Part shown: piece by piece, positions 17,948-23,917 of the stretch
How positions within the stretch are numbered: position 1 is the first letter of the stretch
Layout: each line of letters starts with the position of its first letter
Notes under the pieces: model-generated
Told to the model about the DNA's origin: nothing
Seen by the model: the letters and a program-made list of their open reading frames with translations, nothing else
The model's database searches: none
Origin: Desulfobacula sp.
GTDB taxonomy: Bacteria; Desulfobacterota; Desulfobacteria; Desulfobacterales; Desulfobacteraceae
Direction: 5' to 3'
Assembly: GCF_030611305.1 (NCBI RefSeq)
Contig: NZ_JAUWQB010000001.1
Location: 1 to 64,000 of the forward strand
Length of the DNA stretch: 64,000 nucleotides
Position numbers and translations under genes: made by a program

Positions 17948-19495
17948 CTAGGATGGTCTTGCCACAAGCACCGGTATTTTGGATTTAAGAATAACACCGC
18001 TGGCAGTACTTCCCAGCACCATCTCCTCAAATTGTCCATGGCCGTGGGTTCCCATGATTATCAGATCAAAATTGTTATCCTGTGCCGTTTTGACGATTTC
18101 ATTAACCGGGTTGCCTGCTGTAACAATCGTTCGATTTTCTGAAAGCGGACAATGGGGCATTTGTTCAAGAACTTTTCGTGAAGTTATTTTCATTCTTTCG
18201 TGGATGAGCTTCTTTGCCGTTTCAATATTTTTTCGGTTAAATTCATCCCATTTCTTTTTATCAATTGAGTGTGACAGATTAATCCCTGTTCCGGAAGAGT
18301 ATTCATCCAGTACATCAGGAACAACATGAATGGCATGAACCTGGGCGTTATATTTATTTCCAATGCTGCAGGCATATTTAACAGCGTATCTGGCGGTTTC
18401 AGATAGATCTGTTGCAAAAAGTATCTTTTTTACATCAATTATCATGGAATCATTTTTTTCAAATTCAGGAACTTTTAATATTTCATCCTTTTCAAATTCA
18501 GCTGTTTCTTTCTCCTTTGCCCTGGGTGCGCCAAACATATAATTGACAAACTTTACATACCATGCCGCAGTCTGAATCTGGATGATATAGGCAAGGGCGA
18601 TCAAAAGTGCTATGGTCATTCCTTGTTTACCAAAGGCCGTCATAGCGATAGCAAGCGCAATGGATAAATCACGCATAACAACACCGAAAACCATTGCAAT
18701 GGCATCCTCTCTTGAAAAGAAAAGTCTGCCGACTATTGTTAATAAAATATATGAGATGAGATAAAAAACGGCTAATGGGACTAGGATAATGATGATATCG
18801 CCAGGATTGGCAATGATATGTTTTGCTTTGAGAGACATGGCAAGAAATGCAATTAAAACGACCCCAAGGGCAGAAAATGGAGGGAATTTAGGTTTGATTT
18901 TTTCATTCCATACTTTTTTACCATATTTTTTCATTCCTAAAGTCTGGGTTAAGAGGCCTACAAATAAAGGGAAAAATACAAATATCGCAATTTGTTTAAA
19001 CATATGAAGCATATTTACTTCTATGGTCGCACCCATAAACACTTTGGTAAAAATCGGAGCAGCAAGAGACCCGATCACAAGTCCGAATACAACCATTTTA
19101 ATGGCAGCTTCCTTATTGCCTTTGGCAAATCCGGTCCAGGAAATGGTCATTCCTGATGTCGGCAAAACACCTATTAAAAAAAGCCCAACTGCCCAAAGAG
19201 CAAATTTGGGTGCTTCACCGGATAAAAATATTTTTCCAATGGAAAAGACAAGCAGAGGAACAAATATGAAATTGATGATCTGGGTTACCAGTTGCAGTTT
19301 AAAGTCATGACCTTTAAAAATGGTTTTCACATTTAATGTCACCATCATGGGGTAGACCATGATAAATGTTACCGGAATAATGAATTGTTTTAAGGGTGCC
19401 GCGTTAAACAGATATCCATAGATTAATCCGAACATCATGGAGATTGGGATGGCCCAGACGAGATTCTTTTGTATGACTGACAAAAATTTGAGCAC
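17948..19495 (-). CDS. BASS/ACR3-like permease fused to C-terminal universal stress protein (UspA) domain
   Basis: ~10 TM segments; ISWTGFAKGNKEAAIK; C-terminal KKILFATDLSETARYAVKYA...IIMGTHGHGQFEEMVLGSTA. Confidence 0.82.
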   Translation of the reverse strand: MLKFLSVIQKNLVWAIPISMMFGLIYGYLFNAAPLKQFIIPVTFIMVYPMMVTLNVKTIFKGHDFKLQLVTQIINFIFVPLLVFSIGKIFLSGEAPKFALWAVGLFLIGVLPTSGMTISWTGFAKGNKEAAIKMVVFGLVIGSLAAPIFTKVFMGATIEVNMLHMFKQIAIFVFFPLFVGLLTQTLGMKKYGKKVWNEKIKPKFPPFSALGVVLIAFLAMSLKAKHIIANPGDIIIILVPLAVFYLISYILLTIVGRLFFSREDAIAMVFGVVMRDLSIALAIAMTAFGKQGMTIALLIALAYIIQIQTAAWYVKFVNYMFGAPRAKEKETAEFEKDEILKVPEFEKNDSMIIDVKKILFATDLSETARYAVKYACSIGNKYNAQVHAIHVVPDVLDEYSSGTGINLSHSIDKKKWDEFNRKNIETAKKLIHERMKITSRKVLEQMPHCPLSENRTIVTAGNPVNEIVKTAQDNNFDLIIMGTHGHGQFEEMVLGSTASGVILKSKIPVLVARPS

Positions 19496-19515: not shown

Positions 19516-21588
19516 TTAATCTGTGTGAACGCTTGGAAATAAATTTGCATCGGTATGGGGTAGAAACTGGGCTCTTGTGAACTCTTCCATAAAGGCATTA
19601 TTACTTGAAAAATCAAGATATGTCATTGTATTTGAAATCGCAATAGCCTGCTGTCGATAAGTATTGGAAAGCAATGCCATATAAGCACCGGCAATGGAAC
19701 TGTTTCCCATATATTTAAATTTTTCTCTTTCAATATCCGGGAGCAATCCTATGGTTATTGCCTTTTCGATATTTAGGTATTGGCCAAAACCGCCGGTGAT
19801 AATCATCTGGCTGATGGAAGAAAAATCCATTCCAACCTGATCAAGAAGGATGCTGAATCCTGCATAGATGGCAGCTTTGCTTAGAATCAAACTCTTAATG
19901 TCTGACTGGGTAAAAATAATATCTTCTTCTGAGTCAATATTGTCTGCATATTCAATAATAAATGCGGGTTCTTCATTGAAAAGGACAAATCGCGGGTGAT
20001 TTGTATCAATCTGAAATTTACCATCCTGACCAATGACTTTCTTTAAAAGCATTTCAGATAAAAGATCAATCATTCCTGATCCGCAAATTCCCCTTGCCGG
20101 CTTGTTTTCTACAGTCAAATAGTCAGGCTCAAACGTTTTCGAGTCTATAGTAATCTTTTCAATGGCACCGTCTTCTGCACGCATGCCCCATCTGATACCT
20201 CCTCCTTCAAAGGCAGGACCTGCGGAGCAGGCTGCCGTCATGAGAAATTCATTATTACCCAGGACAATTTCTCCATTTGTTCCAATATCAATAAAAAGGG
20301 TAAGATCTTCAAACTGATTGAACCCTGTATATAGTACACCCGACACAATATCCCCGCCAACATAGCTGGCAGGTCCGGGCATAACAAAAACACCGGCATA
20401 ATATGCTGCCTTTAATCCGATTTCCCCGGCTTTAATAATGGGGAATTCAGAAACTGTCGGGATATAGGGTTCTCTTCTAATATACTTTGCATTGATTCCC
20501 AGCAATAGATGGATCATGGTTGTATTGCCGGATATAACAATGCTCTCAATCTGTTTATGATCTGCATTAATTGAACTGATGGCCTGTTTTGTCAGATCAT
20601 TGATAGTAGAGATGGCCATCTTTTTTAATTTTTTTACACCATCTTTTTCAGAACAGACAATGCGATTGATGACATCGTCACCACATGCTGCCTGACGATT
20701 ATGACCTGATGCAGTACTCAGTATGGCACCATCAGACATATCCACAATGTAGACAACGATAGAGGTCGTTCCCAGATCCACAGCCATGCCGAATGATTTT
20801 TTTTGATCCTTGGCCGGGCTGACATCAACAATTTCCGAAGAGCATTTTTTCCATAGTAAGGAAGCAATAACCTTCCATTCATCATTCCTTACAGACTCTG
20901 TCAGCTGACGCATTACTCTGATATTGCTGCTCATTTTGGACGTATCATATCCAAATTTTTTAAGCTGTCGTTTCAGCCGGTCAAAATCACTGACAGTATC
21001 TTCCATGGTCGGCAAATCAAGCTGCAGGGGAACTTTTTCGACGATGGGTTCAATTTTTTCCACAAGGCCTGAAAGTTTTTTTGTGGCAGTCTCTCCCATT
21101 CCGGCCGCTTTTAATTTTTTTTCGATTGTCTCTTCAGGTATTTTGACTATGATATTTTCAAAAATTTTTGATTGACAGGCAAGGACATATCCCCTTTCAT
21201 TTTCTTTTTCACTTAAAAGGGATGTTTTTTCAGAGTCTGCCTTACCGGATTCTATGATCAGTTTGCATTTCCCACATGATCCCTTACCATTGCAGGAGGC
21301 ATTGATATAGATATCGGTTTTTTGAGAGGCTTCCAATAAATTTGTCCCCGGGGTAACGGCAACTTTTTTTCCCCCTGGTTGAAAAGTGACGATACATTCT
21401 TCTTTATCAGGAACGTCCTCTGAAGATTCAAAACCTTTTTTTGTAATAAAATGAATCGGGCAGGAGGGTCTGAACTTGCAATATATATCAGGATCACGGC
21501 ATTCCATACAATCTTCGCAAAAATAAATGTTATGTTTCATGCAGATATAACCGGTTTCTCGATCAGGATGATTGACACATTTACCCAT
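19516..21588 (-). CDS. RACo-like [2Fe-2S]-ASKHA protein with N-terminal B-box-like Cys/His domain
   Basis: N-term CVNHPDRETGYICMKHNIYFCEDCMEC; CNGKGSCGKCKL; AVDLGTTSIVVYIVD; DIGTNGEIVLG. Confidence 0.87.
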   Translation of the reverse strand: MGKCVNHPDRETGYICMKHNIYFCEDCMECRDPDIYCKFRPSCPIHFITKKGFESSEDVPDKEECIVTFQPGGKKVAVTPGTNLLEASQKTDIYINASCNGKGSCGKCKLIIESGKADSEKTSLLSEKENERGYVLACQSKIFENIIVKIPEETIEKKLKAAGMGETATKKLSGLVEKIEPIVEKVPLQLDLPTMEDTVSDFDRLKRQLKKFGYDTSKMSSNIRVMRQLTESVRNDEWKVIASLLWKKCSSEIVDVSPAKDQKKSFGMAVDLGTTSIVVYIVDMSDGAILSTASGHNRQAACGDDVINRIVCSEKDGVKKLKKMAISTINDLTKQAISSINADHKQIESIVISGNTTMIHLLLGINAKYIRREPYIPTVSEFPIIKAGEIGLKAAYYAGVFVMPGPASYVGGDIVSGVLYTGFNQFEDLTLFIDIGTNGEIVLGNNEFLMTAACSAGPAFEGGGIRWGMRAEDGAIEKITIDSKTFEPDYLTVENKPARGICGSGMIDLLSEMLLKKVIGQDGKFQIDTNHPRFVLFNEEPAFIIEYADNIDSEEDIIFTQSDIKSLILSKAAIYAGFSILLDQVGMDFSSISQMIITGGFGQYLNIEKAITIGLLPDIEREKFKYMGNSSIAGAYMALLSNTYRQQAIAISNTMTYLDFSSNNAFMEEFTRAQFLPHTDANLFPSVHTD

Positions 21589-21620: not shown

Positions 21621-21920
21621 TTATAATGCGTCGTCCAGGCTCTTTACAATGGTGTTTTCGGATTGAAGACCAACGAACCGTTTAATCTCTTTGCCATCCT
21701 TAAAAAGGATTAAGGTAGGAATACTTTGGACCATATATTTTGTTGCTAAGGCTCTGTGTTCATCAATATTAATTTCAATAATAGATGCACGGTTCTGATA
21801 CGTGTTAATCAGCTTTTTGATGACAGGTTCCTGTGCCTTACAAGGAGCGCACCAGGTTGCATTAAAATCCATAAGTGTAACACCATTTTTTAAAGTTTCC
21901 TGGAATTGATCTATACCCAT
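21621..21920 (-). CDS. Thioredoxin family protein
   Basis: FNATWCAPCKAQEPVIKKL; SIPTLILFKDGKE. Confidence 0.92.
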   Translation of the reverse strand: MGIDQFQETLKNGVTLMDFNATWCAPCKAQEPVIKKLINTYQNRASIIEINIDEHRALATKYMVQSIPTLILFKDGKEIKRFVGLQSENTIVKSLDDAL

Positions 21921-21992: not shown

Positions 21993-22102
21993 TATATGTT
22001 TTTCCGGCAGTGTAATATGTTGTAATATATTGAAAATAAAGAACATAATAATAGAGAGCACCTGAATTTATTGTTTCTGGTGGTTTTGGTTAAAAAAAAA
22101 GG

Positions 22103-22140
22103 AACGTTACTTTATCGAAACGGTTTCGGTCTGTAACGTT
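22103..22140. promoter_or_regulatory. Nested palindrome (candidate enhancer/UAS) in divergent region
   Basis: AACGTTAC(22103-22110)...CGAAACGGTTTCG(22116-22128)...GTAACGTT(22133-22140). Confidence 0.5.
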
Positions 22141-22193: not shown

Positions 22194-22209
22194 TGGCACA
22201 ACCCTTGCT
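22194..22209 (+). promoter_or_regulatory. Sigma54 (-24/-12) promoter
   Basis: TGGCACAACCCTTGCT matches consensus TGGCAC-N5-TTGCW. Confidence 0.85.
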
Positions 22210-22258
22210 TTAATATACTTTGGTAATTATGTAATTAACCCGTAACCATGAGGTACAT

Positions 22259-22417
22259 ATGAAAGAAATGATTTATGTTTTTCTCTTCCTGGGAATTTAT
22301 ATCCTGGTACAAGTCTATATCCTGCCTAAAATGGGGATATCCACCTGAATGAGAGATGCCTGTCAGGTGACAGACAAGAAAAAAATTCAAAAAAAGATGC
22401 CTGAGGATAACTCATAG
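22259..22417 (+). CDS. Candidate small membrane selenoprotein (TGA at 22346-22348 read as Sec)
   Basis: MKEMIYVFLFLGIYILVQVYILPKMGIST-U-MRDACQVTDKKKIQKKMPEDNS*; GAGG RBS; one TM helix; frame continues past TGA to TAG with a C five residues after U; SECIS-like hairpin downstream. Confidence 0.6.
22358..22376 (+). promoter_or_regulatory. SECIS-like hairpin
   Basis: CTGTC-AGGT-GACAG (22360-22373), apical loop begins 16 nt after TGA, plus outer TG/CA pairs. Confidence 0.55.
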
Positions 22418-22450
22418 TGTTTAAAAATTTTCCTGGTATTGACTATAATA

Positions 22451-22460
22451 GTAACGTTAC
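22451..22460. promoter_or_regulatory. Palindrome GTAACGTTAC upstream of second sigma54 activator
   Basis: Perfect 10-bp palindrome sharing half-sites with 22103/22133. Confidence 0.4.
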
Positions 22461-22507
22461 CTATTCTTTGTGGTTAGGACAAAATGTGTTACACAAAAGG
22501 ATAAGAT

Positions 22508-23917
22508 ATGGAAACCCATCAATTATGGAATGTTAGTTTTTTAAACCAGATTCTTGATACGATGGCAGAAGGTCTTTTCACTCTGGATGACCAGGGCATA
22601 ATTACATCCTGGAACAAATCAATGGGAAAAATCACGGGCTATTCTGAACAGGAGGCTGTCGGCAATACCTGTAGTTTGATTGAATGCAGCCGGTGTTTCG
22701 GTAAAGAGTGCCCGGCCAATATTAATAAATGCGGTGTAATCAAGCATGGAAAAACAGAAGCTAAAGAATGTTTTATTAAGCATAAGGACGGACACAGTAT
22801 TGCCGTAATAAAAAACGCAAGGCTTGCCCGGGATGAAAATGATCAGATCTTGGGAATTGTTGAAACCATTACAGATCTGACCGAATTAAAAAAAATTAAA
22901 AAAACCGCTGAAGAGGCTCAAGGGAAACTTAAAAAAACTTACCGGCTTGGGAGTATTATCGGGAAAAGTGCTGTAATGCAGAATGTGTTTGATGCCATAC
23001 AGGCTGTAGCAAACAGTCGGGCCACAGTGCTGATCCAGGGTGAAAGCGGGACGGGAAAAGAACTGGTTGCCAAGGCCATTCATTATACAGGTGCCGGTTC
23101 CTCAAGCCCTTTGATTACGGTGAATTGTTCCGCCCTTTCTGAAACCTTGCTTGAAAGCGAACTATTCGGACATGTTAAAGGGGCCTTTACAGGGGCTCAC
23201 AAAGATCGAAAAGGCAGATTTGAGGAGGCGGACGGAGGGACTGTTTTTCTTGATGAAATTGGAGAATTGACCCCATATATGCAGATAAAACTGCTAAGAG
23301 TCCTACAGGAAAGAGAGATTGAAAGGGTAGGGGACTCAAAGAAAAGAAAGATAGATATCAGAATTATTGCCGCGACCCATAAAAACCTTTATGACTTGAC
23401 TCAGCAGGGTAATTTCAGAGAAGATCTGTTTTATCGATTAAAGGTTTTCCCCATTAATGTTCCATCCTTAAGAAAACGCCGTGAAGACATCCCAATACTT
23501 GTCAGACATTTTATTAAAAAAGGGAATAAAAGAGAGAATAAATCCATAGGAAAGGTTGATACACAAGGGATGAAACGATTGATGGAACATTCATGGCCCG
23601 GAAATATAAGGGAACTTGAAAATGCCATTGAACATGCATTTGTGATTTGTAATTCAAATCGGATTGAACTCAAAGATCTGCCTGTGGAGATCAGAGAAAA
23701 CCAGGGGCACATGAAAAGCATTCCTCCTATTACGAATCTGACCCAAACCAGATCATATAGTACAGATAAGGTTGCAAAGCTAACAAAATTGGATCTTGTA
23801 AAATTGCTCGAAGAGTGTAATTGGAATAAGGCAGAAGTGGGTCGACGAATTCAAAAAAGCCGAACCTCGGTGTGGAAATACATGAAAAAATGGGGCATCC
23901 CATTGCAAAAGCCCTAA
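22508..23917 (+). CDS. Sigma54-dependent Fis-family activator with Cys-containing PAS domain (paralog of 569-1972)
   Basis: PAS with C-x5-C-x4-C-x6-C; GESGTGKE; GAFTGA; Fis HTH. Confidence 0.93.
   Translation: METHQLWNVSFLNQILDTMAEGLFTLDDQGIITSWNKSMGKITGYSEQEAVGNTCSLIECSRCFGKECPANINKCGVIKHGKTEAKECFIKHKDGHSIAVIKNARLARDENDQILGIVETITDLTELKKIKKTAEEAQGKLKKTYRLGSIIGKSAVMQNVFDAIQAVANSRATVLIQGESGTGKELVAKAIHYTGAGSSSPLITVNCSALSETLLESELFGHVKGAFTGAHKDRKGRFEEADGGTVFLDEIGELTPYMQIKLLRVLQEREIERVGDSKKRKIDIRIIAATHKNLYDLTQQGNFREDLFYRLKVFPINVPSLRKRREDIPILVRHFIKKGNKRENKSIGKVDTQGMKRLMEHSWPGNIRELENAIEHAFVICNSNRIELKDLPVEIRENQGHMKSIPPITNLTQTRSYSTDKVAKLTKLDLVKLLEECNWNKAEVGRRIQKSRTSVWKYMKKWGIPLQKP

Follow-up and report, generated by a model that had tools for sequence, protein, structure and literature searches.

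The locus

The stretch of DNA analysed here (the window, 64,000 nucleotides from contig NZ_JAUWQB010000001.1 of a Desulfobacula sp.) carries on its plus strand a short gene of 52 codons plus TAG (22259..22417), the frame of which contains a TGA as codon 30; a sigma54-type promoter precedes it, and the gene for a sigma54 activator (22508..23917) follows. On the minus strand, oriented divergently, lies a thioredoxin gene (motif WCAPC, 21621..21920), which in relatives recurs beside the activator and the short gene. It is joined there by two further members of a neighbourhood recurrent in relatives, a RACo/AcsV-like protein with an extra Cys-rich N-terminus (CVNHPDRETGYICMKHNIYFCEDCMECRDPDIYCKFRPSCPI; 19516..21588, minus strand) and an SBF-type sodium symporter fused to a universal stress protein domain (17948..19495, minus strand).

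The sigma54 promoter

At 22194..22209 (plus strand) the sequence TGGCACAACCCTTGCT matches the consensus TGGCAY-N5-TTGCW exactly, with the GG at 22195-22196, the GC at 22207-22208, and a spacing of 10 nt; transcription is predicted to start around 22220, and the ATG at 22259 is immediately preceded by GAGGT. The strict pattern (TGGCAYNNNNNTTGCW) occurs 35 times on both strands of the 3.57-Mb genome versus 0 times for the pattern read backwards, and at this genome-wide rate the probability of a strict match within 350 nt of one strand is 0.0017. When one mismatch is permitted, the window contains three matches versus 2.6 expected; as this is chance level, the weight rests on the exactness of the match of TGGCACAACCCTTGCT. 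An exact site is found 47-79 nt 5′ of the start codon in 10 of 13 orthologous loci of the genus, the other three being without a sigma54 site. Consensus match, genome-wide count and orthologues thus argue well for a real promoter, as the earlier note had proposed from its -24 GG and -12 GC; only the span given there, 22194-22211, was 2 nt too long at its end, as the site closes at 22209.

Conservation in related genomes, which the same note had put forward as a check, holds for the genus but not beyond the lineage. A sigma54 score of at least 4.5 is reached by 12 of 92 members of the order (shuffled sequences 0.0, reverse strand 0) and by none of 40 family members from outside the order; by this measure the site is confined to Desulfobacula, Desulfobacter and close relatives, and sigma54 control as a family-wide trait was rejected. 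Three loci of the Desulfobacter type (L035, L100 and L111) have a strong sigma54 site too, located 91-99 nt 5′ of the short gene, and in L100 a homolog of the activator lies 87 nt downstream.

The in-frame UGA

The earlier note regarded a membrane mini-protein as the target of the promoter, which with a stop at the TGA at 22346..22348 (plus strand) would have 29 residues. This does not hold up; in the window and in the relatives of the genus the ORF continues past the TGA with an open frame, a conserved Cys and a hairpin of the bacterial SECIS type. The read-through product (MKEMIYVFLFLGIYILVQVYILPKMGIST-U-MRDACQVTDKKKIQKKMPEDNS) has 52 residues, a single transmembrane helix, and a UxxxxC motif in the context ...QVYILPKMGIST-U-xxxx-C..., residue 30 being the putative selenocysteine. 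All 150 loci inspected, 110 from the collections for the order (with a few repeated entries among them) and 40 from the rest of the phylum, have TGA, never TAA or TAG, at the identical position. The Cys follows five residues after the Sec position in the members of the order shown and five or six in the phylum set.

A Cys version at the Sec position was found in none of the 150 loci; a Cys homolog is a common support for a selenoprotein, not its defining feature. Before the UGA, 41% of changes are non-synonymous versus 78% expected, which indicates strong constraint at the protein level, while after it the codons of close relatives change without such constraint except at the hairpin and the Cys. 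In two of the 13 loci of the genus the ORF is deleted or frameshifted.

The bSECIS-type hairpin

The hairpin at 22358..22375 (plus strand) consists of a stem of CTGTC (22360-22364) and GACAG (22369-22373) with the loop AGGT (22365-22368), which begins 16 nt past the UGA. The published bSECIS model describes a stem-loop with a G within the first two loop positions, followed by G/U, the loop lying 16-37 nt past the UGA, and applies an energy cut-off of -7.5 kcal/mol (PMC13188914). In loop (AGGT) and distance (16 nt) the hairpin agrees with this model; its energy in a folding window of 39 nt is -6.6 kcal/mol versus the cut-off of -7.5, and a longer stretch around it folds differently (z -1.25). 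Rfam gave no match at the hairpin.

Comparison across relatives makes the structure well supported. The 91 distinct sequences of the order have the stem CTGTC/GACAG or one of the variants CTGCC/GGCAG, TTGTC/GACAA and GTGTC/GACAC, and have the loop AG[G/T]T, 16 nt past the UGA, in common. In an alignment of 39 distinct sequences 89% of the stem cells are paired, versus 28-63% when the stem is slid by 1-3 columns; compensatory changes amount to 15 double-changed cells versus 4.7 ± 1.8 in shuffles, a number reached in none of 500 shuffles. Outside the order the hairpin differs in sequence, most members still having a stem with a GGA, GGU or GUC loop 16-24 nt past the UGA. For the phylum-wide set the mean hairpin energy is -9.5 kcal/mol versus -4.5 for shuffles, and the cut-off of -7.5 kcal/mol is passed by 72% of members versus 21% of shuffles.

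Distribution and selenocysteine machinery

The read-through protein is encoded in 189 of 243 genomes of the order, almost always as a single copy with one internal TGA, and a profile search found the family in 163 of 395 genomes of the phylum; a named genome collection yielded 172 matching stretches, which condensed to 80 loci, most of them titled Desulfobacteraceae, Desulfobacterales or Deltaproteobacteria. The carriers include the culturable relatives Desulfobacter latus and Desulfosarcina widdelii. The Desulfobacula genome itself encodes selA, selB and a tRNA-Sec (76.5 bits). Comparing the presence of selB with that of the ORF gave too much noise with the threshold applied, and selA and tRNA-Sec were used instead. 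Among the 163 ORF-positive genomes of the phylum selA is present in 156 (association: Fisher p = 0.001, uncorrected for relatedness), and in each of the seven without a selA match a tRNA-Sec scores 70-86 bits; conversely, the ORF is present in none of the six genomes without selA and without a strong tRNA-Sec match (G352, G453, G454, G404, G462 and G296).

These data bear on the simplest alternative, namely that the TGA is an ordinary stop, that the product is a membrane peptide of 29 residues, and that the hairpin serves the activator gene as an mRNA attenuator or stability element. The short ORF alone, with its ribosome site, would make a plausible peptide of this kind, and both the weak hairpin of the window and the scarcity of amino acid constraint past the UGA in close relatives would agree with it. 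However, it leaves unaccounted for that the codon is always TGA at the same position, that an open frame and the conserved Cys persist despite very different hairpin sequences, that the hairpin persists where the downstream gene is unrelated, and that every ORF-positive genome of the phylum sample has Sec machinery. We consider an ordinary stop highly improbable, and the mini-protein reading was dropped because the frame beyond the TGA is open and conserved in the genus. With frame and machinery likewise well supported by comparison, the TGA at 22346 is almost certainly a selenocysteine codon and the product a selenoprotein of 52 residues.

Relation to described selenoprotein families

No fitting model for the 52-residue protein exists in Pfam or NCBIfam 20.0; its matches to two models, PrxQ with E 0.006-0.02 and DMAC1 with E 0.04, fall well short of the cut-offs and were dismissed as chance. 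None of the 119 prokaryotic selenoprotein families listed in a 2026 review (PMC13188914, Table 1) fits, as judged by names and motifs only. An earlier survey used an ORF minimum of 80 residues even after reduction (PMC1242214), and the deep-Sep finds DG, DW and DF all have Cys homologs (PMC12013277); with such limits, that is, long ORFs and Cys homologs, a short family occurring only with Sec would escape. The family is apparently undescribed so far, an earlier description being conceivable. Surveys would then appear to have overlooked a selenoprotein family that about 40% of the Desulfobacterota sampled, and about 78% of its order, possess; the reasons would be too short an ORF, a TGA taken as a stop and the lack of Cys homologs. 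The product would rank among the smallest selenoproteins known, and the apparent absence of Cys versions suggests that selenium is indispensable to its function.

The neighbouring activator and its candidate binding sites

The activator (22508..23917, plus strand; 469 residues) has the order PAS - AAA+ - HTH, as deduced from domain search and alignment. Pfam detects PAS, Sigma54_activat (PF00158, 239 bits) and AAA lid domains; the HTH-like region at the C-terminus is conserved as judged by eye in the alignment. An identity as PrdR or NifA was rejected, as the scores are far under the equivalog cut-offs. The PAS domain (22670-22790) contains a cluster of Cys residues (CSLIECSRCFGKECPA..KCGV..ECF) which is conserved in the genus and partly lost in other families; its role may lie in metal binding or redox sensing. 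A second PAS-sigma54 activator, 57% identical to the one at 22508, is encoded in the window at 569-2017 on the minus strand.

Two candidate half-sites for the activator lie upstream of the sigma54 promoter on the plus strand, AACGTTAC at 22103..22110 (inside GGAACGTTAC, 22101-22110), which precedes the predicted start by about 110-117 nt, and, inverted with respect to it and 30 nt downstream, GTAACGTT at 22133..22140. The pair is separated from the sigma54 site by 55-90 nt and from the predicted start by about 80-117 nt, and half-sites at a fitting distance upstream of the site are found in most members of the genus, in several of them placed similarly; two loci (L010 and L012) have no clear ones.

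Upstream of the activator gene, TTGACT-17-TATTCT (22439..22467, plus strand) resembles a sigma70 promoter, an arrangement which is clearer in relatives, for example TTGACA-GTAACGGTAACGTTACC-TATATT. Its 17-nt spacer contains, between -35 and -10, the palindrome GTAACGTTAC (22451..22460, plus strand), which is the probable autoregulatory operator. The palindrome occurs once in the whole genome versus 14 times for the backwards control; it is kept 5′ of the activator in 12 of 13 loci of the genus, and GTAAC-type sites are also present 5′ of activator orthologs from other families. Between the selenoprotein gene and the activator gene no terminator-like site was found, so transcription may read through into the latter.

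The uniqueness of the palindrome in the genome, together with the half-sites ahead of the promoter, gives good support to a dedicated local activator, in agreement with the link to the adjacent PAS activator that the earlier note had drawn. Alternatively, the promoter might be served by another of the many activators of the organism; 37 matches to the activator query in its genome, together with the two loci wanting clear half-sites, would be in line with this. Against it stand the location of the only genomic copy of the palindrome at this very locus and the half-sites upstream of the promoter in most relatives, and we regard service by another activator as unlikely. The neighbouring activator is, on these comparisons, the probable dedicated regulator of the sigma54 promoter; from the position of the sites we infer that it would bind GTAACGTTAC and the half-sites and that it probably represses its own sigma70 promoter via the palindrome. 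NtrC represses in this manner at glnAp1.

An ECF sigma gene overlapping the selenoprotein ORF

In the lineage of the window the sigma54 activator, instead of an ECF sigma factor, is encoded by the next gene. At 13 related loci, from Desulfosarcina and others (L086, L090, L093-L095, L104, L105, L119, L122, L125, L128, L131 and L136), a gene for an ECF sigma factor starts at an almost constant position, 31-37 nt past the UGA, in another frame, in several of them followed by a zf-HC2 anti-sigma gene. The ECF sigma frame has an in-frame stop just 5′ of its start, and in 11 of the 13 loci this stop terminates at one common position within the hairpin; the ECF sigma gene can therefore not start before the UGA. 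If translation is coupled, the ECF sigma factor would need Sec decoding for its synthesis, and ribosomes would reach its start mainly by way of a UGA read as Sec. That a phylum-wide, Sec-only family of mini membrane selenoproteins also gates a regulator by selenium is a tentative proposal, which in our estimate is rather doubtful.

A related possibility, a refinement of the selenoprotein reading and not its opposite, is that read-through of the UGA is partial and regulatory, so that forms of 29 and 52 residues coexist and their ratio reports selenium status. Bacterial Sec insertion is generally inefficient, the peptide encoded before the UGA already forms a complete transmembrane helix, and the ECF sigma gene of the 13 related loci begins within the part after the UGA, all of which would suit this idea. 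Sec and the later Cys are both conserved, however, as is to be expected if the long form is the one that works, and we think partial read-through possible but not probable.

Possible role and mechanism

Around activator orthologs of other families, thioredoxin, the SBF transporter, a Cys-rich N-terminus of the RACo type and a small membrane protein recur; near the selenoprotein gene within the order, thioredoxin, SBF transporter, RACo-like protein, MobB and a Tat Fe-S protein are recurrent, as are a small membrane protein and ECF sigma/anti-sigma pairs. Outside the lineage of the window the selenoprotein gene lacks both this promoter and this activator as a neighbour. No neighbour of the selenoprotein gene is constant across the phylum, for which reason the neighbourhood was rejected as a clue to function; the neighbours recurrent within the order suggest, but do not prove, a connection to redox processes. 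Two individual arrangements may be mentioned: at one locus (L052) a short protein encoded upstream of the selenoprotein has an N-terminus resembling the Cys-rich one of the RACo-like protein, and in other families, too, the SBF transporter adjoins the activator (L018 and L019).

Judging by the charges of the lysine-rich tail, both it and the Sec-x4-Cys pair would face the cytoplasm, the pair probably being positioned beside the membrane. A redox role of the selenoprotein appears likely, a membrane-anchored redox relay being the best guess.

The following scheme, which comprises the sigma54 promoter, the neighbouring activator, the selenoprotein of 52 residues, its redox role and autorepression, is as a whole very probable in our judgement. 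Sequence comparison gives good support to its sigma54 site, read-through frame, hairpin, Sec machinery and unique palindrome; binding by this activator, autoregulation, topology and redox role are deduced. Most likely, the paired GTAAC/GTTAC half-sites (22103-22140) serve as docking sites for the activator, which would remodel the sigma54 polymerase at 22194-22209 once its PAS domain receives a signal. The resulting transcript would encode the selenoprotein, with SelB and tRNA-Sec decoding the UGA at 22346, aided by the hairpin at 22358-22375. The predicted product, a single transmembrane helix with a lysine-rich tail and the Sec-x4-Cys pair beside the membrane, most likely serves as a small selenol/thiol redox partner anchored in the membrane; candidates for its counterpart are thioredoxin and the redox proteins encoded nearby. 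Finally, repression of the sigma70 promoter of the activator gene by its own product probably acts via the palindrome between -35 and -10. With a single promoter, activator and target, the locus offers itself as a test system.

Comparison with known systems

The predicted regulation resembles that of the NtrC/NifA type in its PAS-AAA+-HTH activator, -24/-12 promoter, paired upstream sites and probable autoregulation; it differs in that this activator has, by the criterion of the palindrome, one local target in the genome, and the equivalog models for NifA, PrdR and NtrC are matched only far below their cut-offs. Like other bSECIS selenoproteins, the protein has an in-frame UGA, a G[G/U] loop 16-24 nt further on, a nearby Cys and Sec machinery in the genome; unlike them, it has only about 50 residues, one transmembrane helix and a Sec-x4/5-Cys motif, without a thioredoxin-like fold and with no Cys homolog found. 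A third comparison is with the hypothetical proteins DG, DW and DF, which are likewise new predictions from sulfate reducers of the same phylum (PMC12013277); the set includes Desulfosarcina widdelii, which also bears the gene for the 52-residue selenoprotein (L086). Whereas DG, DW and DF correspond to the NCBIfam models NF049953, NF041197 and NF049942, the 52-residue protein matches none of these.
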